DNA of 64,000 bases from Cloeon dipterum. Lineage: Eukaryota; Arthropoda; Insecta; Ephemeroptera; Baetidae. The translations under genes and the position numbers were made by a program. Shown piece by piece: positions 16,610 through 29,900 of this stretch. The notes beneath the pieces were generated by a model. It was not told where the DNA came from and did not search any database. It saw only the letters and a program-made list of their open reading frames with translations. How positions within the stretch are numbered: position 1 is the first letter of the stretch; each line of letters opens with the position of its first letter. The DNA lies in assembly GCF_949628265.1 (NCBI RefSeq), contig NC_088786.1:25627681-25691680 (forward strand). Direction: 5' to 3'.

Positions 16610-17986
16610 ATGGCAGCAGTTAAAGTAGCTGTGGTGAGTGTTAATTTGTTCGACACCACATAATCCATTCTAATTTTAATCGATATTTTGTAGGTGACCG
16701 GCGGAAACAAGGGCATTGGCTATGCTATTACTCAGGGCTTGTGTGACAGGTACAACGGAACTGTCTATCTGACAGCGAGGGATGAAAATCGAGGAAGGGA
16801 GGCTGTTGCCAAGTTAAACAAGGTCCGTTTTAAATCTTCTCAGTTTGGCACTTTCTTACTAAACGCATAACAGTTGCAAAATACTGATGACATCATTAAT
16901 TTCAGCTGGGATTCAAGCCCCTTTTTCACCAGTTGGACATCGAGGACCAGGGAAGCATCAACAGATTTAAAAGGTTCATCGAAGAAACTCATGGAGGTCT
17001 TGATGTTCTGGTGAACAATGCTGCCATTGCCTACAAGGTAATTCTTTCTTGATATCATCAGAAAATATTTTTTTTGACAACTGTCTATAATTATTGGCTA
17101 TAGATCCTTATAATTTGACATAATTGATTTTGTCTAGTTAACAATTCTGAACATTAAGGGATATTTCTTTCTGGAATTTCCCGTGTACGGCAGCTTTTTT
17201 AAATCAACAATTTTTTTATGAATAATGAATTATTATTGAATAACTATTTCCAGAATGATGCCATAGATCCATTTGGCAAGCAAGCAGAGGACACAATCAG
17301 GATCAACTTCTTCGGTGTTTTGAACACCTGTCGCGCCCTCTTACCCCTTATGCGTTCTCACGGGCGTGTGGTCAACGTCTCCAGCTCATGTGGTCATCTT
17401 CTTAGGATCAACGGCCAAGAGCCTCAGGCTGCAGAGCTCCGGACCAAGCTGTCATCACCCAGTTTAACTGAAGAGGAACTCTGCGATATCATGAGGAACT
17501 TTGTCAAGTACGTTTTTGAATTTAAAATATCGATGTCTCTACAACCAAATTAATTCCACGAACGAATTTGATGTTGTTTTTTTTGTTTCAATAGGGCTGC
17601 TAATGCTGGCAACCACTACGAGCTGGGCTACCCCAACAGCTGCTATGTGGTTTCCAAGGTGGGTGTCAGCGCCCTCTCGCAAATTCAGCAGCGCACGTTT
17701 GATAATGACACCTCAAGGGTTGATATGGTGGTAAACCACGTTCACCCTGGCTACGTGGACACCGACATGACCAGCCACAAAGGGCCTTTGACCATTGAAG
17801 AAGGTACAAGTTGCAAAGAAAATTTGAAGTTTGAAAAAATAATAATTTATCTTTCTTCCAGGGGCTGTTGGTCCACTGTATTGCGCGCTTCTGCCTCCCG
17901 ATGTCAAAGAACCAAGAGGACAGTTCATCTGGAAAGATTGCTCCATCGTGGACTGGGTCAACGGCCCTACACCATCTTCAGTTTAA
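16610..17986 (+). CDS. Carbonyl reductase (NADPH)-like short-chain dehydrogenase/reductase
   Basis: Six exons join in frame: 16610-16633, 16694-16822, 16906-17037, 17254-17507, 17595-17803 and 17862-17986, giving 290 residues. The cofactor loop TGGNKGIG is at residues 10-17, followed by a Rossmann strand pattern with ARDENRGREA. NNAAIAYK is the SDR NNAG-type motif, NVSSSCG carries the catalytic serine, and the active-site YxxxK is Tyr197-Lys201 (YVVSK). Length and the 40-residue insert before the catalytic Tyr match the monomeric CBR1 branch, which reduces carbonyl compounds with NADPH in the cytosol. The PGYVDTDMTSHKG segment is also typical of CBR1. Exon 1 encodes only eight residues. AATAAA at 18122-18127 is a good polyadenylation signal. 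The exact substrate cannot be told from sequence. Confidence 0.9.
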
Positions 17987-18394
17987 TAGAAATCATTCCA
18001 GGGAATTCATACTTCAATGAGTGCATACAAATTATTTTCATATAATTTAAAAAAATATATTCTTTAAAATTTTTTCACTTAAGCTCTTGTGACGGGCTCT
18101 TAGAAGTAACCGTTAAAGTGAAATAAACATGAAAGCACAAATATTGATCCTGTGTTTAATTCTCAACATTATATAGTTTTACTCTGAACTGCCTAGCAAC
18201 AAAGAGCAAAAAATACTAACAGTCACGCTCTGTTTGACATCACCTCACATATACCACGTTACAGGATCCACGCAGAGCGCCATGTGGGAATTCATTTAAA
18301 ATGTATTCTCAGTGCAGGAATGAGGCGCACGATGATGTTTAATTTTTTAACAGTGCAGTGCCAACCATTACTCTAATTTGGTTGATTAGGAGAG
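17987..18394 (+). other. SDR 3' UTR and gap before the galactosyltransferase array
   Basis: Holds the SDR poly(A) signal (AATAAA, 18122-18127) and, closer to the next gene, a TCAGT initiator-like pentamer at 18309-18313 about 85 bases before the next ATG. Nothing else is recognised. Confidence 0.4.
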
Positions 18395-20054
18395 ATGGCA
18401 AAATATAAGAAAACGAGCAACAATAGTGTGAATGTGATTGAACGATGTCTGTGCAACTTTTATATCGTGTTCTTTTTGGGTTTTCTGCTTGGGTTATGTA
18501 TGTCCATGGTAATGATAACTTCTTTTGGGGCATCTAGCATGCTGAAAAACTACATGCCTCCAAAAGTGCACGGAAATGAAAAACAGGAGCATCTCAAGTA
18601 AGGTTGGATTACCATTCTAAAATTTGCTTTAATTCCTTCAAAAACAGGGAGGAACTAAAATTAAAAATTGACGCAAAATTTATTCGAGAGGTCTCCAGTT
18701 CAAATCTGACGCTTGCAAGGCAGTTAAAGAACAGTATGTATTTTTACGACAGCAAAAAACACAATGTCTTTTATGAATTTATTAAAAGTGAATATTATAA
18801 TTTTCTTTACCAGCCGCACGCAGAATCCAAGGCATTGCAATGGCAAAGAAAATGCGAATCCTCTGTTGGGTGATGACGGCGAAGCACACGCACAAAACAA
18901 GGTCTTTGGCAATCAAAAGAACGTGGGGACGTCATTGCGACAAAATTCTATTCTTTAGTGAATCAGAGGGTATTGATTTAAAATAAATAAAAATCTGTAA
19001 AGTAATTATTACACTGAATGTGCGCAAATAAATTCACAGACACCGAAGTTCCAACGATCCAGATAGAAAATGTACCGCCTAATCGGAGCGGTCTATGGAC
19101 GAAAGTGGTCGGCGCTTACAAACACGTCTACAATTACCACCGAGATGAATATGATTGGGTCCTGCGGGCCGATGACGATACGTAACCAATTCTATTTTAA
19201 ACGAAATTCAAACGATTTCTAATTATACTTGAATCAGATTCGCCATAGTTGAAAACATGCGGGAAATGCTTTTACCTTACAGTCCAGATCAACCTGGATT
19301 TTTCGGCTACAGATTCATTCCCCATTCTCCGCGCGGGTACTTCAGCGGGGGCGGCGGTGTGACTTCACCGTTTTATTATTTTTGATCAAAACTAAGAGTT
19401 TAAAATGAAATTTAGGTGTGCTTACGAGCAGAGAAGCGGTTGAAAGGGTGGTGACGAGGGCATTTGATGATAAAAATCGAGACTGCGCCAACACATCGAA
19501 ACCTATTACAGACGACGATGTGAAGATTGGTAAAATTATCAATAATAAAAAGGTTTGGCATCTCTAAAACCCCGAAAATAAAAGCCCAGTGCTTGTATGC
19601 TGTTGGGGTCGAGCCAGATGACTCGCGAGACTTTCTGGGTCGCAGCCGAATGCACTGCTTTGATGATCAGGCGCACATAAACCCAAATGTTGTCAATAGA
19701 GACTGGTGGTATTGGCAATACCTTTGGTGGCCTGTCAAGGGGGTAAAGAGATTTATATATCGTATTGAGTCTGTGTTGCGAAAAGAATGTCAAACAAACA
19801 TTTTTTAATTAAGTGGTAGTGCGTTTTATATAAATACCTCCTTACAGGGACTGGCATGTTGCGGTGAAAATGGAATTGCGTGGCACTATATCTCACCGGA
19901 AAAACAGTACATGCTGCATTACCTTTCTTATCATGTGCAACCGGAGAGCGTAATTTTCGTGGCGAAGGCGACTGTTCCCGAAGGAGGCATTCCAAAAACA
20001 ACGGAGAGAACCACTTATGAACCAATCGGATATCCAATTGAAATTGCTCGATGA
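18395..20054 (+). CDS. C1GALT1-like beta-1,3-galactosyltransferase, array copy 1
   Basis: Eight exons: 18395-18597, 18648-18733, 18814-18969, 19040-19181, 19238-19356, 19416-19529, 19585-19742 and 19848-20054; 394 residues. The N-terminus is a type II membrane anchor (YIVFFLGFLLGLCMSMVMI). The glycosyltransferase domain follows: MRILCWVMTAK, a TWGRHC motif, the metal-binding DDD at residues 193-195 (DWVLRADDDT), FFGYRF, SGGGGVLTSREAV, and the C-terminal WWYWQYLWWPVKG then ACCG and HYxxPEKQYMLHYLSYHVQP. Core-1 synthases add galactose beta-1,3 to O-linked GalNAc in the Golgi lumen. All landmarks I can identify are kept, so it is probably active, although the substrate may differ from core-1. 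The acceptor of exon 7 (AATAAAAG) lacks a pyrimidine tract. Poly(A) signal at 20203-20208. Confidence 0.9.
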
Positions 20055-20528
20055 AAACGATTAAATAATTTATGTACTCTGACATACAGAAGTATTAGTT
20101 AAATAATGTAAAAAATAATAGAGATTTTGTCATCTTCCTTAAAAAAAAGTCTGGAGAGTAAATTTAATAATCACAATAATTACGCATTATATCATACAAA
20201 TCAATAAAGGCGCTTTGATTTTTAAGGTTTCAAAGCATATATGTTAAGTGAATAAAAAAATCCTATTCCCAGTTTTCTCAGGATATTTACTTCTTTTCGC
20301 GATGCGCTACTTAGTTGAAAGCAGGTTTGTTATCAAGAGACACACGTTTTATGATAATAAAAGGTTATAATTGCGTTTAAAAAAATATTTTATTTTTTGG
20401 GTATCATTGGGTGTGACAAGCTCTGGTCATAACTAGAGGACTGAATTGGAGAGACTTTAAATTTAGCACGGTCCATTTAAATAGCAAGTTAAGTTGCTTC
20501 AAATTGTTACAGAGACAGAAAAATTAAT
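20055..20528 (+). other. Copy 1 3' UTR and intergenic gap
   Basis: AT-rich; holds the poly(A) signal of copy 1 (AATAAA, 20203-20208). No coding frame is supported before the relic copy. Confidence 0.45.
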
Positions 20529-21447
20529 ATGTGTATAAAATATTGTAGGCAATTTATCCCCCACACGGTCCCTGCGTGTACGTTTTTTCCTGGAGTCACA
20601 GTTGGTTTTGTGATGTGCACTTTACTGGTAACACAATTATCATATAGACAACAATAATTTTATTTCAGCTATTGCTATTACGTACCGCTCAGTTGATCTT
20701 GATTCGTGCTTGTAACACTAATGATTCAAAGTCATAAAAACAATTCTGAATCTATACAGACCGCTTACAATTAGAATTAAATTCATCATATGTATACATA
20801 TGATTTACTCAGATGTAAAGTGGATTAAGATTTTTAATTTTTAGCGATTACTAAACAATTGTTCGGGGACAAATGAAATGAATGCGAGGAAACTTGCCGA
20901 AATAATTAAAATTTTGTGCCTTTTGTGATTACGACTGGAACTAAACACCAGACTGCGCACGGCAATCCATGTGAGATGAGAGCCACTTGAGGCAGTAGGC
21001 ACTGCAACCAATCACTTCACTAGCAACACAAACGGTCTTTAGAATGTTGCGCAAAAAACATTTTAAAATTAGTGTATATATTTATTACTTTTAAGACTCG
21101 ATGATTTTATCTGCACTCACGGGACGCCAAGGGTTGAAACAGATTTTTTCCCATCTGATGCGGAAACACTCAAACCCGGACGCAACTCAAGAAAATAGTT
21201 AGTGCTGGTGGAACCACATTTACTGACCTCAAGGATCTGTAAGTTCCATGATATTATTTGATCAAATTACTTCAAAGTTGTCTTAAGTGAATCAATTGCT
21301 GCTATGACGAGCCAGTTTCGTTTCACTATTTGGACAAAAGAAAGATGTACCATGATGGACTTTTTAGTGTACCACACGTGTCAAACCGTGGAGCAATTCA
21401 TTATTCCATCAGCACCTACTACTGTACACTCAATCTTGGCTAACTAA
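20529..21447 (+). pseudogene. Disintegrated C1GALT1-like copy between array copies 1 and 2
   Basis: Four pieces in the right order recall exons of the neighbouring genes. At 20529-20656 an ATG opens a 42-codon frame whose hydrophobic segment (GVTVGFVMCTLLV) matches the membrane anchors of the array. At about 20875-21025 the DNA is close to exon 4 of copy 2 (ARKLAE, then KILC), but frames change and the TWG tryptophan is a TGA. At about 21130-21240 RFFP, HSNP and IY-stop-P recall the exon encoding RFFPFAVDNHVNP...WWYWDYIYWP, again with stops; it still ends at an intact-looking GTAAGT donor. At about 21300-21447 DEPVSFHYLDKRKMY then, in another frame, MMDFLVYHT match the last exon. Exons for the DxD and glycine-rich regions are missing. 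Several stops and frame changes make it a clear relic. Confidence 0.8.
20785..20804. repeat. Perfect 20-bp palindrome
   Basis: ATCATATGTATACATATGAT reads identically on both strands. It lies inside the relic galactosyltransferase copy, between its anchor exon and its exon-4-like piece. Function unknown; it could be chance in AT-rich DNA. Confidence 0.7.
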
Positions 21448-21708
21448 TTTTATGCAATAAGAAGTTTATAAGTGAATGTATTTGATGAATGATTTTTGTG
21501 GATACTTAATTGATTGTTTTAAGTGAAACGCCGCAAGAAAGGTTTTTTATTACTAACGCATATCAAGATCATACAAAGTTATTTAAGTTGTACGCTTATC
21601 ACAAAACCACTTGTCTTAATGATCAATAGAAGATGATATAAAATCACCGCCGCTTCAAAATTTTGCATGCATATTTCTGGTGCGCGGTGTCCAGTAAAGA
21701 CGCTTCAA

Positions 21709-21742
21709 TTTAAATTAAGTCTTTTCTCTCCGCCAATTCAGT
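21709..21742 (+). promoter_or_regulatory. Candidate core promoter of array copy 2
   Basis: A TTTAAATTAA stretch at about 21709-21718 lies roughly 30 bases before TTCAGT (21737-21742), an arthropod initiator-like sequence. A start here would leave only about six bases before the ATG at 21746, so initiation at the later in-frame ATG (21923) would be favoured. Confidence 0.3.
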
Positions 21743-21922
21743 ATCATGCGCTCTCATTTCCAAGATAAAAAAGCGGCCGGTATTTGCCTTCTGATTAGCA
21801 GGTTATGGCGCGGTGTGTCTCGCTGTTATCACCTAGCTCAGTTATTCTTTTTAGCAATAGTACGTGCTGCGGACCTCTTGCCGGCAAAAATATTTCGCCT
21901 CCTTCATGTTTTGCAGCAAAAG

Positions 21923-23594
21923 ATGATCAAACTAGATGCAGGTTAGTGTGAAAGAATATATACATTTTACAACTTTAAAATTTGGATTCATGCAGGAGCA
22001 CTTGGTTTGAGGAATAGAGGTTCCAATGCCAAGACTTTGTGCGTTTTCGCTGTTGGCATCGCAGTCGGCTTTGCAGCGTCCTCACTTTTTGTTTCCCATC
22101 GATTTTTGGAAGAAAATTACTTCGTCAAATTTGTAAATTCTCAAAATGATTCTAAGTAAGTGTGCGGACTTTTAAAACGAAACCGCAATTAATTGTATAA
22201 TATTCTCTCTTATTCATTAGGGTTGAATCAGAGAGTGTGTTTCAAAAACCATTTAAATCCATAGTACAGCTACATCGTGACATGGAATTGAATCATTCGT
22301 ACACGTTAGAACTACTTCATAGTAAGTAAATTCAACAAATAATGATTGATTGACAACGAGTATTTTTAAGAGGCTGAGGAAATGCACGCGAGGAAGCTTG
22401 CCGAACAAATCAGAATTTTGTGCTGGGTGATGACGACGGAATCAAACCATAAGGAAAAGGCGTTCCACGTCAAATCCACTTGGGGCCGGCACTGCAATCG
22501 ATTGATTTTTATCAGTGACGCTGAAGGTACGGGCAATTGTTAACAGTGCAAAGTATATTAATTTGACAGACAGAGAACCAGCTAACGCAATAAAATAATT
22601 TTTTTCCAACAGATCACTCGTTGCCGGCCGTAAAACTGGACGTGGCTGCTAATCGTGCAGCTCTTTGGGCCAAAACTGTGGGCGCATTCCAGCATGTTTA
22701 TGAGCATTATAGGGATGAATACGACTGGGTAATGAAGGCCGATGATGACACGTGAGGAGTTAATTTGACGTATACGACGATAATTTGAAATGTAGGCGAG
22801 TACAGATACGTCTTCGTGGAGAATCTGAGGACGATGCTCATTCCCTACTCGCCAAAAGAGTTGATTTACTTTGGATCTCGGTTTAAAATAGGGACTCCAC
22901 TAGGATACATGAGTGGTGGTGGAGGTTCGTTCGATAATAATTACTAAATTACATATTTCATTGATTTTAAATATTTATTAGGTTATGCGGTTAGCAGAGA
23001 CGCTGTGGAAAAGGTGGTTAATGAAGCATTTGATGGCAAACAATCAGATTGTCCTTTATCAAGCGATGACGGGCCTGAAGATATTTTGATTGGTAATAAA
23101 CGCATTATCAAGAGGAAGTTTGATTGACAATTAGACGCGCCTTATCAGTTGAAAAATGATTTTACTGAAGTGTCCTATCAAGGTAATAAAAAAATGTTAA
23201 ATTTCAGCCAAATGTCTTCATTCAGTTGGTGTTATACCTGGAGATTCAAGAGACTCAAATGGAAGGGGCAGATTTTTCCCATTTGCTGTGGACAATCACG
23301 TGAATCCAAACCAAGAGCCTAAGGACTGGTGGTATTGGGACTACATTTACTGGCCAATAGAAGGGGTAACCGTCATTTCATATAAAAAATTACTTGATTA
23401 ACTGTTGATTTTAGGGATTGGATTGCTGCTCCAATCAACCGGTCTCATTTCATTACGTGACCCCGACGCAAATGTATATGATTGAATTCTTAGCCTACAA
23501 AGTGAGACCATTCAGCGTTAATAATTTGCAAAAATGGGTAAATCCAACCATTCCCCCTACGTCACGGGCAAATACTACGGAGAGTGGTGATTGA
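21923..23594 (+). CDS. C1GALT1-like beta-1,3-galactosyltransferase, array copy 2
   Basis: Nine exons: 21923-21941, 21996-22155, 22221-22321, 22371-22526, 22613-22751, 22806-22924, 22982-23092, 23208-23365 and 23415-23594; 380 residues. The start at 21923 gives a short cytosolic tail before the anchor (TLCVFAVGIAVGFAASSLFV), as in the family. An in-frame ATG at 21746 would add 59 residues (439 in all). Catalytic landmarks are complete: ILCWVMTTE, STWGRHC, DDD at residues 189-191 (DWVMKADDDT), YFGSRF, MSGGGGYAVSRDAV, WWYWDYIYWPIEG and GLDCCSNQPVSFHY. From the second exon on, intron phases equal those of the other copies; the extra 5' exon is unique here. Expected role is Golgi galactosyl transfer to O-glycans. 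Poly(A) signal AATAAA at 23625-23630. Confidence 0.9.
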
Positions 23595-23850
23595 AATAGA
23601 AAAAAATTCGAAATTAATTTTTCTAATAAAAGTCTCAGAGCACCACAAGACACAAGAATTTCATTTTCATTAATTTTATGTACATATTATGTTTTTGCTT
23701 TACAAGTTCTTTATCAATGTTCAAATTAATATTAAATATGGTTTATTCAATGTTTCTTATAACCATGAAAAAATTCAATTTTCAAAAAAAATTCACACAG
23801 CTGACTGAAATAAATGCTTAACGCGGTGGACGACACAAATTGGCTGTGTG

Positions 23851-23875
23851 ATTTAAATCCGGGAGACGTGTCAGT
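23851..23875 (+). promoter_or_regulatory. Candidate core promoter of array copy 3
   Basis: ATTTAAAT at 23851-23858 followed by a TCAGT initiator-like pentamer at 23871-23875, 70 bases before the copy 3 ATG. The arrangement resembles that in front of copy 2. Both motifs are short and could be chance. Confidence 0.25.
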
Positions 23876-23944
23876 GTCATTTTCCCCAGTCTGCTTTCGT
23901 CGCGCCAACCATACAGAGCACAGAGCGCGAGTCGAAATTGTATC

Positions 23945-25397
23945 ATGGAGCGGCGATTGCGGTTTGACTCGCCGTCATTTAGCTATCAATACATCTTTAC
24001 TGTCGGCCTCTTTACCGGAATTATCGCTGGCTTTGTTGCAGCAGTCCTCAGGATAAATCCAATGTCAAAAAATTTCGTTTTGCCATCGGAATATGATAAG
24101 TAAAATGCGTTGTTTTGAATATTCGGCTGGATTTTAGTAAATTTGCAGATATGCGGAGAGCGATAAAATTCAGAAATCACTTTCAATGGTCGCCAATTAC
24201 CAGCTACGGCCAGAATCGACCATTCCTCGGGATCTGCTTCAAAGTTTGTGCGAAATTCTTGGCTTTTCTGGGGTGGTGAAACTGAAATTTCAGGAGCCGA
24301 GGAGGATCTGGCAAAATTAATAGCAAAGGAAGTCAATATTTTGTGCATGGTGATGACGAACGCGACGCAAAGAGCAGCATCTGAGCATGTAAAACGCACT
24401 TGGGGCCGGCATTGTAACAATTTAATCTTCATGAGTGATATAGATGGTATTAAAATAAAATTAACAATATTAGAAACTTTTTGTAACTTTTGTTAAGACA
24501 AATCACTGCCAAGTGTAAAAGTTGTCGACAAGGCAAAGAGAGAAGGCAGGTGGGCAAAAACTATCAACGCATTGAAGTACGCTTACAAAAACCATCACTT
24601 TGACTGGGTTATCAAAGTGGACGACTCAAAGTAACGCATTCCAATGTCAGTTTTAATCACAGGCTCAACGCTTTAAAAAGTTTTGTGTTCGTAGAGGATT
24701 TGCAGGAGATGCTTCTACCATATTCACCAAAAGAGCCCTTGTATTTCGGCTTCAGACTCAATCCAGTTCTCCCTCAAGGCTACATGAGCGAAAATGCAGG
24801 TTGTGAGGCGATTTAAACACGAAAAAAGTTATAATATTTTAAAACAGGAACTGTCCTCAGCAGAGAGAGTGTGAAACGGCTGGTTAAATCCGCTTTTGAC
24901 GGAGCCAGCAAAGAATGTCCGAAATCGGACGATAATTTTCCACCCGATGTTGATTTAGGTTCGTGTGCGGCAACTTAGTAGTCTAAATTGACAATTTAAA
25001 TTTTAGCTTTGTGTTTGGCTGCCGTTAAAGTGGAGGCCGGCGACTCTAGAGATTGGGAAGGCAGACACCGATTTTTCCCTCTTGACGTCGCGGCGCACAC
25101 CTTCGCGGAGCCAACTAAGTACAAGTGGTTTTGGTCGTACACATTCTGGCCGGTTTTCATAGTGAGCTAATATCTTGAAATGCGATTCAGAATTTAATTT
25201 ATTTTTCACAGGGAATCGAAGGCTGCGCAGATAAGCCAGTCTCTTTTCATTACATAAAGCCGGCAGCCATGTACATGTTTGAGTATTTGGCCTATTACGT
25301 GCGGCCGTTTGTGGTCAACTCTTTAGAAATCAATACTCCAGCACCAACAATCATGCCCCCGCCGAATGTGACCTCGTCAAGTACTACTAAAAAATAA
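23945..25397 (+). CDS. C1GALT1-like protein, array copy 3, altered active-site motifs
   Basis: Eight exons: 23945-24099, 24149-24243, 24294-24446, 24498-24630, 24681-24799, 24848-24958, 25007-25161 and 25212-25397; 368 residues. A type II anchor (YIFTVGLFTGIIAGFVAAVL) is followed by VNILCMVMTN, RTWGRHC, FVFVEDLQEMLLPYSPKEPL and SFHY, which place it firmly in the family. The aspartate triad is changed to D176-D177-S178 (VDDSK), so the DxD metal-binding pattern is gone. The GGGG stretch is SENAG and the Cys pair is GC. The frame is nonetheless intact through eight exons with clean splice sites, apart from the exon 5 acceptor (TTAAAAAG). I infer a pseudoenzyme or one with changed chemistry. A partner, chaperone-like or lectin role is possible but not shown. 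Poly(A) signal at 25416-25421. Confidence 0.88.
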
Positions 25398-25877
25398 AAT
25401 TGTTTATTTGTTTGTAATAAAGACAATTTTTTGAATAAATTTTATGATTTTTTTTTACAATTTAGGGGGTTTCAAGTTGTGCCCAATGACTTTACTTTTG
25501 AATGATTTTTAGACTGGCAAAGGTCACATAATATGTAATTACCACCTTTGCGTATATAATACTTCGTATTGGAAAGCTTTCAAATACACTTTTCTTAATC
25601 ATCTAGGTCACATTTCAGAGAGCATTTTGCTGATTTCCCTTTTAAAATATTAATAACAAATATTGCCTGACATCTTCGAGAAGCTCAGTTTATACTTTTT
25701 CTATTAATTTGAAAATCAGTGAATACAAGTTAGAACGGTGTCACGCATGACACCAATGTCGGTAAAAATGAAAAGTGGGACGTCTGTCAGCTGAGCTGGC
25801 TGTTGTCAGGATGTGAGTCGGCACACACGCTAAAAAATTAAATTTTAAATCGCGACACGCTCTCATCGCCACGGACC
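25398..25877 (+). other. Gap between array copies 3 and 4
   Basis: AT-rich; contains the copy 3 poly(A) signal (25416-25421). The last 140 bases are GC-richer and probably form the promoter and 5' UTR of copy 4. No coding frame is supported. Confidence 0.4.
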
Positions 25878-27985
25878 ATGTACGAGGATAAAAAGATGAT
25901 TTTGCCGCTAACAACCAAGATGCCATCAAAGAGGGCAAGTCTGCCGCGGATTGTGTTCACCTTTTCCCTCGGCCTCTCGTTCGGCTTTACCTTATCGACT
26001 TTAATATTGTCCCCCTACTCTTCACGCAGTGGCCCAAGCCTAGGCCCTTTTTCCAAAGTTGCGTTCGTCCAGCAGGAAACGTAAGCGTTTTAAAAGTGAA
26101 CCGAAATTATTTAACAGATGAATTATCAGGTCTTACGTCAGCCCTGAATTCTTGTTTAAGAGTGTTCAGGCGAAATTTGAAATGGATTTGGACCTGAATT
26201 CAACGTTTGTGCACGAGCTCCTGAGAAGTATGTTCAAGACGGAAAGTTGAAATTATCCTACCTTTAACAAATGCTGTAGGTGCCGAGGAGGTGGCCGCCC
26301 GAAAGTTGGCCCAACAGGTGCGCATCTTGTGCATTGTGATCACCGTGCCTAAGAACCACAAGGACAGAGCTGAACACGTGCGAGAGACTTGGGGAAGGCA
26401 CTGCAACAATATTCATTTCATCAGCACCAAATATGGTGATTGCGCGTACTTGCAAAATAAAGAATTAAAATAAAATTAATTAAAGACGCTGCACTGCCGA
26501 CAACGAATGTTAAAATTGCGGAAGGCAAGAATTTGGAGTGGGCAAAAATGGAGGGCGCATTTAACTACTTGCACGAAACAAGACTGAAGGACTTTGACTG
26601 GGTCGTGAAAACCGACCATGAATCGTAATTTCTTTCTTGTGGATTTATTTCCAAAATTTTCACATATGTAATTTAATAGTTTTATCGTTGTGGAAAACCT
26701 GAGAACAATGCTGACTAGCTACTCGCCAGATGATCCGATTTATTTCGAATTGAGCTACGGTGTCAACGACAATACCACCGGCTCAAACACTGCCTGTATG
26801 ATTTAGAATAATGTAGTGCAGCTAAAAATTCGTTAATTCGTAAATTTTTAGCCTACGTACTAAGCAGAGAATCGGTTATTCGTCTGGTGATTGAAGGATA
26901 CAATGGGTCGAAGCATGCCGACTGCAGCGGGAAAGATATAAAGACTCAGCTTGGTAAAACTGCATTAAATATCTGACTCAATTCTAGATTCGAGTATGTT
27001 TTGAACTCTAGGCAGTTGTTTCAAGGCACTTAAACTCAAGCAAGAAAGCACGCGAGACGAGCTGAACAGAAGAAGGTGCCTCCCATTTCACCAGGCCGAG
27101 GATCTCAAGGATATTCAAAATCTTGAGGGTGACGAATGGTGGAAGAATGATTATGTCTACTGGCCCATGAATGCGGTACAGTGCGTTTTTACGGGGTCCA
27201 TATTTTTAGTTAATGAGACGAACTATAATGTTTCCGAAGTTTTTGTTTCTATGCTAAAATACGAAAAGGACGAGCAGCATTGGGACGATTTTATCAGAAT
27301 AACTGACATGATTATTTTTTAATTTGATTCGTATTTTGTTTTAAGTAAATTAACGAAGATAAAAAGCAAGTCCTATATTTGAAACTCAATTTTTATATTT
27401 TAAAACAAAAAAGGGATAAAGTAGAAAATAGGAAAAACACTACTTACTTCAAATCAGTCCTATGAAACGCACTTTGAAAGTAGGTTAAAACGTACTTATG
27501 TTATATTACCTTTACAGGGTCTGAACTGCTGTTCCTCAGAGCCGATTTCATTTCACCCAACCCAAGTGTCCGCCCTCTACATGCTGGAGTACATGATATA
27601 CCACGTCCGTCCAAACAGTGTGATGAGACACACGAATATCAAGCTGCCGGAAGAAAAGATCAAGGACTCCGCATCCACCCCTGCAGCAAAGAGCTCGTCA
27701 ACACAGTCGACCGTCAAGCCTACGTCTGAAACTACCCCAAAACCAACTAGTTCTTCACCACCATCATCAACAACAACAACCACTATTAAAGCGAGCAGCC
27801 CGCCGTCGTCAGCTGGTCCTGCAGGCTCCAGCCCGGCCCCCACTACTCCCAAGAGTGACCAAGGAACAGCAACTTCCGCAACTTCCACTGCGGCTAATAC
27901 GAGCATGACTGGGAGTAGCGCGTCGTCTGTTGCGAATGTTACTTCAGCTACTTCTTCTGTAGCAGCAACAGCTAAATCAAAATAA
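25878..27985 (+). CDS. C1GALT1-like protein, array copy 4, DxD lost and mucin-like C-terminal tail
   Basis: Eight exons: 25878-26080, 26130-26227, 26280-26435, 26486-26624, 26680-26795, 26852-26953, 27012-27175 and 27518-27985; 481 residues. The anchor is IVFTFSLGLSFGFTLSTLIL. Family landmarks are VRILCIVIT, ETWGRHC, FIVVENLRTML, VLSRESV, WWKNDYVYWPMNA and GLNCCSSEPISFH. The metal site reads D196-H197-E198 (KTDHES) in place of DDD, the glycine-rich stretch is lost, and FG of YFG is FE. The last 110 or so residues, after the usual family end (YHVRPNSV), are almost only Ser, Thr, Pro and Ala. Because the C-terminus of a type II protein faces the Golgi lumen, this tail could itself be heavily O-glycosylated. 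The seventh intron (342 bp) is the longest. Probable pseudoenzyme or mucin-like derivative; the function is unknown. Confidence 0.88.
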
Positions 27986-28747: not shown

Positions 28748-29900
28748 TTAGTCCTGCGGTTTCGTAAGCGCCAAAGCTTCTTTTGTTTGTTTGGCCAGCG
28801 CCGGTGCGTGCAGGGCTTCCCGGCGGTGCATGTGGCCGTGTGGGTAGTGGCCAGCATGATGGTCGTAGTGGTCGTAATGGCCGTGGTGGTGGCTCCCCGC
28901 GTGATACCCTCCGTAGTTGTATCCGCCGTAGTGGTGTCCTCCGCCGAGATGGTGTCCTCCGTAGTGGTGCCCACCGTGGGGGTATCTGTCGTGAATGTCA
29001 ACGTGGAGGCCCCCCAAGTGCGGCGATGCTTCGCGCCGGTGAACCAAGTGGTGGGGATTCTCATGGACGCCGTGATGAGGGTTGTGGACACCGTGATGAG
29101 GGTTGTGGACGTCGTGATGAGGGTAGTGGACGTCGTGATGAGGGTCGACGGGAACGTGGTGTTGGTCCATCAATTCATGGGAGAGGCTCTCGATGAAATC
29201 GTGGTACATCATTGGCAACAACAGCCTTTTCGAACGCACATTTCCTGCTTCAGGTGTTTTCGTTTTGGGCTGACCAGTAGCTTCAAGATCATTTAGTTGG
29301 TCTAGTTTTTCGATTGAGTCTTTCCTTAATGTGGCCAAGAACAAAGTGCCATCCAAGTCTGAAAGTAGAGTGAATTGCATTTGAAAAATATAAACTTGAA
29401 AAATGGACTTGATATATATGTTAAAAAGTAGATGGAGGTACAAAAAATGTTAGCATGTTACGGCAGAATAGGCAAAAATATTTGGAACACCAAGAAATAT
29501 AAGAGAATTTGAAGAACTCACAGGCTGGAATTTATTGATGAAAGATTCTCATAAAATTTTAGGCACGTAAGATATGAAAAAATATACAGAATTCCACAAA
29601 TTTCAGTTAAAAGTAAAGATTCTCTAGAGGAGAAAAGTTTTTACTTGGTTTAATTTTCTTTACCTTGAGGAGCGTTTGCCATGAGGAGCGTATCTTTCAG
29701 GGCATCACTTGGGTGGTCTAGAAACGGTCTGTGGACTTGTTCAAAATTCAACCCTAAGTGAAAGGCATTGACGACAAAGCCGTAATTCACCTACGAACAA
29801 TGAAACAAAAATCCAATCAATCTAATTAAATCATACAGCAAGTTAATCAATTAAAAATTACAATTGTGAGAGCGAGGAAAACAAATTCCAGACGATCCAT
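28748..29900 (-). CDS. Secreted histidine-rich repeat protein, function unknown
   Basis: Three minus-strand exons: 29900-29862, 29790-29664 and 29358-28748; 258 residues. The start gives a hydrophobic signal-peptide-like N-terminus (MDRLEFVFLALTI), split by intron 1. The middle is a plain leader (residues 20-110) ending in RSKR, a furin-type site, then LLLPMMYHDFIESL. Residues about 125-165 are repeats of the kind NPHHGVH. A His/Gly/Tyr-rich region (YGGHH, HYGGY) follows, and two HRREA segments look like further basic processing sites. High His content suggests metal or pH-dependent binding, or a cuticle/matrix role, but I recognise no family. The plus-strand frames opposite are shadows of this gene. 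The splice phases agree (0, then 1). Confidence 0.8.
29071..29154 (-). repeat. Four tandem 21-bp repeats in the His-rich gene
   Basis: Four head-to-tail 21-bp units begin at 29071, 29092, 29113 and 29134; plus-strand units start CGTGATGAGGGT. Units 1 and 2 differ only near the end, unit 4 has drifted most. They encode the His-rich heptads on the minus strand, so repeat number is likely to vary between individuals. Confidence 0.85.

Follow-up and report, generated by a model that had tools for sequence, protein, structure and literature searches.

Tandem arrays of glycosyltransferase genes raise the question of what becomes of copies that lose residues of the catalytic centre. In Cloeon dipterum, an array of genes related to C1GALT1 (glycosyltransferase family GT31) contains two copies with an altered metal motif, which may be enzymes with modified properties, genes on their way to extinction or proteins that have adopted a non-catalytic function. 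In vertebrates, T-synthase relies on Cosmc, a paralogue that is itself dead, and invertebrates are said to have no such protein, according to one statement of the field in a passage of PMC11005171. Expanded sets of C1GalT genes are already known from insects; the Drosophila family comprises eight genes, as given in a passage of PMC8024498. Among open-licence papers, no published report of such an array or of invertebrate paralogues lacking the DxD motif was found. Maintained C1GALT1-like proteins without DxD, situated beside intact ones, would allow one to ask whether non-catalytic relatives arose repeatedly and which role they play; if the two copies are merely altered transferases, the array would represent an ordinary family expansion that provides useful natural active-site variants.

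Organization of the array

The window, i.e. the whole stretch of DNA analysed, is 64 kb long (C1:25627681-25691680) and belongs to a genome of 190.1 Mb in 10 contigs. At 18395-27985, it carries four C1GALT1-like (GT31) genes, each of them complete, together with a broken relic; all are arranged head to tail on the plus strand (Table 1). This arrangement had been proposed in a sequence-only reading of the locus, and both the gene models and the similarity of the relic to copy 2 bear it out. Searching the entire window by tblastn revealed no copies beyond these.

Table 1. Features of the C1GALT1-like array (window coordinates; E values refer to the match with Drosophila C1GalT1, 7q4i)
Feature	Position	Strand	Description
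Copy 1	18395-20054	+	8 exons, 394 aa, type II membrane topology; DDD at 19171-19179; E 6.1e-74; Pfam Fringe 57.1 bits
Relic of a copy-2-like gene, between copies 1 and 2	20875-21350	+	Frame broken; exon-4-, exon-8- (marginal) and exon-9-like stretches
Copy 2	21923-23594	+	9 exons, 380 aa; DDD at 22741-22749; E 2.2e-95; Pfam Fringe 59.4 bits
Copy 3	23945-25397	+	8 exons, 368 aa; DDS at 24620-24628; glycine loop GG to EN at 24790-24795; Cys pair GC; E 8.2e-69
Copy 4	25878-27985	+	8 exons, 481 aa; DHE at 26614-26622; NTAS replaces glycine loop; Cys pair kept; E 6.4e-56
Ser/Thr-rich C-terminal tail of copy 4	27665-27982	+	Coordinates counted back from stop codon

In the gene models, the exon boundaries of which were placed by hand to give GT-AG junctions, all 29 introns are of the GT-AG type and there are 0 internal stops, in agreement with the clean frames and splice sites claimed before. 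A spliced aligner, which also demands GT-AG, recovered the internal exons of copies 1, 3 and 4 identically when copy 2 served as query. The closest solved relative of all four copies is Drosophila C1GalT1 (7q4i); the homology of the catalytic domain (E values of 6.4e-56 or lower) places all of them among the C1GALT1-like members of GT31, and each also has a Pfam Fringe-like match above cut-off. Hydropathy indicates a single strongly hydrophobic stretch per copy, starting at residue 17-25, as in a type II membrane protein. An AATAAA follows the stop codon at a distance of 149 (copy 1), 31 (copy 2), 19 (copy 3) and 439 (copy 4) bases.

Within the relic, the exon-4-like stretch (20875-21007) is 95/119 identical to copy 2 (score 69; the best of 100 shuffles reached 25) and the exon-9-like stretch (21291-21350) has an E value of 0.003; the exon-8-like stretch (21140-21228) is marginal, scoring 30 versus 29 in shuffles. 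The 106 residues of the tail of copy 4 comprise 30 S, 23 T, 12 P and 17 A (82/106), a composition that could make the tail itself a target of O-glycosylation; a shorter Ser/Thr-rich tail is found in g030, a paralogue elsewhere in the genome.

Two neighbours of the array were observed in addition. Upstream of copy 1 (window 16700-18000) lies a short-chain dehydrogenase-type gene, one exon of which matches PF00106, and at 28751-29449, on the minus strand, a His-rich open frame with repeated HHDVH/HHGVH-like units, a 210-residue part of which gave no Pfam match at 0.01.

Active-site residues

Aligned to 7q4i, the metal motif of copies 1 to 4 reads DDD, DDD, DDS and DHE, exactly as in the sequence-only reading, and the glycine loop GGGG, GGGG, ENAG and NTAS. 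The further claim that loop and vicinal Cys pair decay in parallel holds for the loop, which is lost in copies 3 and 4, but not for the Cys pair: it reads CC, CC, GC and CC, i.e. it is lost within the array only in copy 3, and there is thus no parallel decay. Cysteines 103, 127, 246 and 261 are present in all four copies. D181, the base D255 and the metal-binding H324 are retained in copies 3 and 4 as well as in the dispersed paralogue g032 (D255 of copy 4 adjoins a two-residue indel), and W300 and Y304 in copies 3 and 4. The DxD motif of an active C1GalT1 is hence found in copies 1 and 2, and it is absent from copy 3 (DDS) and copy 4 (DHE).

The comparison was based on the 16 residues to which a passage of PMC9065035 assigns contacts with UDP, the metal or the glycopeptide in the fly enzyme. 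These contacts are not conserved across the array: copies 1 and 2 keep 13/16 each, copy 3 keeps 11/16 and copy 4 9/16, compared with 16/16 in the dispersed paralogue g029. In copy 3 (D183S, L155R, E150A, G151K and, in the loop, G221E/G222N), 5/6 of the acceptor-only and 2/2 of the shared contacts persist, versus 4/8 of the donor-only ones. Copy 4 (D182H, D183E, L155E, Y218T, R152K, Y213V and Y325P) keeps 5/8 donor-only, 4/6 acceptor-only and 0/2 shared contacts. For the fly enzyme, a passage of PMC9065035 reports that the Y218A mutant is inactive and that R152A, Y213A and Y325A are down 15- to 25-fold; copy 4 is altered at all four positions (Y218T, R152K, Y213V, Y325P), at none of them to alanine. 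Overall, the copies share with Drosophila C1GalT1 the type II membrane anchor and the Cys framework, except for C208 and, in copy 3, one residue of the vicinal pair. They differ from it at E150, G151 and Y213, which are already altered in copies 1 and 2, by the absence of D183 and the glycine loop in copies 3 and 4, and by the additional tail of copy 4.

Retention in the active site versus the rest of the protein was compared by Fisher's test over residues invariant in the fly enzyme, g028 and g029. Relative to the remainder of the protein, the active site is better preserved in copy 1 (14/17 versus 59/120, p=0.017) and in the dispersed paralogues g030 (p=0.0025) and g033 (p=0.034); it is no better preserved in copy 3 (11/17 versus 66/120) and copy 4 (9/17 versus 57/120), neither value being significant. 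Several genes with an intact DDD show no significant preference either (copy 2, p=0.40; g031a, p=0.45; g031b, p=0.13). The idea that copies 3 and 4 lost their active sites preferentially, beyond the protein average, was dropped, as the Fisher tests are not significant.

Descent of the array

Searches of the genome with copy 2, copy 4 and g034 as queries, which yield lower bounds for locus counts, revealed at least 12 C1GALT1-like loci: the four of the array and g028, g029, g030, g031a, g031b, g032, g033 and g034. The models of the dispersed loci cover the catalytic domain, and those of g031b, g032 and g033 are without resolved N-termini. The array is part of an expanded C1GALT1-like (GT31) family, an insect-type paralogue expansion like the multi-gene C1GalT family of Drosophila. 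Closest to fly C1GalT1 is g029, which lies outside the array; its identity of 71% together with the complete set of contacts makes it the likely core 1 synthase. Since this canonical gene is located elsewhere, the array appears to be an expansion beside it, not instead of it. The loci g031a and g031b form a second tandem pair, 85% identical, in which the vicinal CC has changed to QQ and DDD is kept.

The introns of all four copies have the phases 2,1,1,2,1,1,0, copy 2 possessing one extra 5' exon, and the sequence-only reading took this as a sign of local duplication. When introns were mapped in seven genes (g034 was left out), the same positions and phases turned out to be common to the dispersed paralogues: column 215, phase 2, in 7/7; columns 263, phase 1, and 372, phase 0, in 6/7; and column 306, phase 1, in 5/7. 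Intron phases in the catalytic domain are thus largely family-wide and provide no evidence of local duplication, as a mark of which they were rejected.

In the tree of all 13 rows, copy 4 groups with g032, which is located on contig C5, with support of 98/96, and pairing copies 3 and 4 fits worse (p-AU 0.0146). A clade of the four array copies likewise fits worse on the 13 rows (p-AU 0.030), but it is not rejected on reduced rows and columns (p-AU 0.12, or 0.172 under LG+G4). In the reduced tree, from which g033, g034 and 22 active-site columns were removed, copy 4 and g032 are joined with 92/96 (not starred), and the best tree implies two changes for the loss of D183. A single clade of copy 3, copy 4 and g032, the branches of which are long in these trees, is not rejected on the 13 rows (p-AU 0.363), so that the loss may go back to a single event shared by the three. 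Like copy 4, g032 (C5:24072912-24074254) has a DxE motif; the glycine loop and Y218 are lost and Y325 is replaced by Q, and it is the probable sister of copy 4 on another contig. Of the graded loss from left to right that had been suggested for the array, the order of the motifs therefore stands, but a series within a single lineage is not supported: as copy 4 groups with g032, also a DxE gene, the order is probably no simple decay series.

Selection and maintenance

Codon models were applied to 11 genes and 259 codons, Dm7q4i (no DNA) and g034 (too distant) being excluded, and gave a one-ratio estimate of 0.21. The branch of copy 3 has a rate ratio of 0.30, and a ratio of 1 is rejected with p=0.0061; a second topology, in which the array is kept as one group, gives p=0.00063. 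On the branch of copy 4, a ratio of 1 is rejected with p=5e-7 on both topologies; the synonymous rates of copies 4 and 2 are saturated, and their ratios are thus without meaning. The rejection is marginal for g032 (p=0.049), and neutrality is not rejected for g030 (p=0.10). Pooling copy 3, copy 4 and g032 on the array-together topology yields 0.23 versus 0.21 in the rest, a ratio of 1 being rejected with p=3e-14; each of these tests yields a branch-wide average that takes in the time before the motif changed, and is silent on the period since.

In a substitution-only neutral simulation (400 runs each), every run for copy 3 and for copy 4 had acquired a stop at 0.2 substitutions per site, and at 0.1 substitutions per site frames survived in 1% of the runs for copy 3 and in 0/400 for copy 4. 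In exon 4, identity to copy 2 amounts to 74% for the relic, 73% for copy 3 and 69% for copy 4, i.e. the relic is broken at a similar distance; the pairwise exon alignments copy 1-copy 2, copy 1-copy 4, copy 1-relic, copy 3-relic and copy 4-relic are degenerate, covering few bases, and were not used. Signs of a pseudogene, i.e. broken frames or splice sites and a neutral rate, are confined to the relic, copies 1 to 4 being intact. The earlier view that copies 3 and 4 do not represent simple decay, against which a rate ratio near 1 had been named beforehand as evidence, is upheld by the rejection of this ratio on both branches, and the neighbouring relic shows what decay produces.

Function of copies 3 and 4

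The best explanation for copies 3 and 4, in which we place about even confidence, is that they are maintained, probably non-catalytic paralogues; copies 1 and 2 are probably still transferases. Both altered genes are intact, with conserved fold-level sequence, the Cys framework and one N-terminal membrane helix, both have lost D183 and the glycine loop, and neutrality is rejected for both. They would no longer perform the C1GalT1 reaction and may act non-catalytically in the secretory pathway, presumably in the Golgi; they might, for instance, associate with active paralogues or bind proteins that carry GalNAc. Chaperone-like or lectin roles had been put forward in the sequence-only reading. 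In favour of this reading, copy 3 retains most of the GalNAc-peptide pocket while half of its donor-only contacts are gone, and copy 4 is altered at positions where substitution by alanine inactivates or severely impairs the fly enzyme. Against it, D181, D255, H324, W300 and Y304 persist in both copies, the Glu that replaces Asp in copy 4 is still a carboxylate, and the contrast in retention is not clean, the DDD genes copy 2, g031a and g031b also being without preference. Moreover, the fly enzyme reportedly does not bind one glycopeptide without UDP (a passage of PMC9065035), which counts against a donor-free binder. An analogy may be seen in IRX9 of plant xylan synthesis, a glycosyltransferase relative the activity of which is stated to be unneeded for its function (PMC4132061), although it belongs to another family, in plants, with another partner complex. 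Unlikely as it stands, a more specific variant would make copy 3 a pseudo-transferase with a split pocket, the GalNAc-peptide side being kept and the donor and metal side lost. It would then recognise Tn-bearing proteins or associate with active paralogues in the absence of sugar transfer, and would represent an arthropod invention parallel to, and distinct from, Cosmc.

The main rival, less probable but to be taken seriously, is that copy 3, copy 4 or both are active transferases with altered use of donor, acceptor or metal, DxE taking the place of DxD in copy 4 and g032. The residues D181, D255 and H324, kept in copies 3 and 4 and g032, are consistent with this, and the DxE shared by copy 4 and g032, which pair in the tree, suggests a stable derived motif. 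In other GT-A families, DxD varies or is absent, as in the DxH of GT27/GT60 and in the metal-free GT14, which uses basic side chains (a passage of PMC7185993). Copy 3 has gained the basic residues K151 and R155, but these are situated at uracil/uridine contacts and not at the pyrophosphate, judging by a passage of PMC9065035; in addition, copy 3, copy 4 and g032 all have other residues in place of the loop GGAG, and Y218 and Y325 are lost in copy 4 and g032. That copies 3 and 4 are non-functional genes, decaying too slowly or too recently to show it, is very improbable: active-site constraint is relaxed in both, and the relic demonstrates that copies in this array do die, but frames have stayed open and splice sites conserved along long branches, a ratio of 1 is rejected, and the pooled ratio with g032 is close to that of the rest.

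It is rather improbable, too, that copy 3 or copy 4 is an equivalent of Cosmc, i.e. a chaperone dedicated to the folding of those C1GalT1 paralogues that are active. Relatedness to C1GALT1 combined with a damaged metal motif, without DxD, follows the Cosmc pattern, and both copies retain Y336, the tyrosine of the dimer helix. However, fly C1GalT1 reportedly does not require Cosmc (a passage of PMC8558370), and Cosmc lost both DxD and xED (a passage of PMC7185993), whereas copies 3 and 4 keep, by alignment, the base D255 (in copy 4 beside the indel) and the C-His, H324. On the best reading, the printed description of Cosmc would set them apart from Cosmc itself. In a tree that includes an unverified human Cosmc sequence, the grouping of this sequence with copy 4 is absent from the best tree, and it is not rejected (p-AU 0.196).

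A further DxD-less locus, g034 (C4:1068544-1071102, minus strand), is C1GALT1-like (E value 1e-33 to 7q4i) and has an open start, MKRVQWPLL, and a hydrophobic stretch. P-E-D stands at the position of DxD, H324Q, Y325G, W300S and Y304R are found, and D255 is kept. As a Cosmc orthologue, g034 was rejected: the support for the pairing is 49/25, there is no BLAST preference and both branches are long. At H324/Y325, it resembles the unverified human Cosmc sequence and is in this respect more Cosmc-like than copies 3 and 4, which may serve as a lead only.
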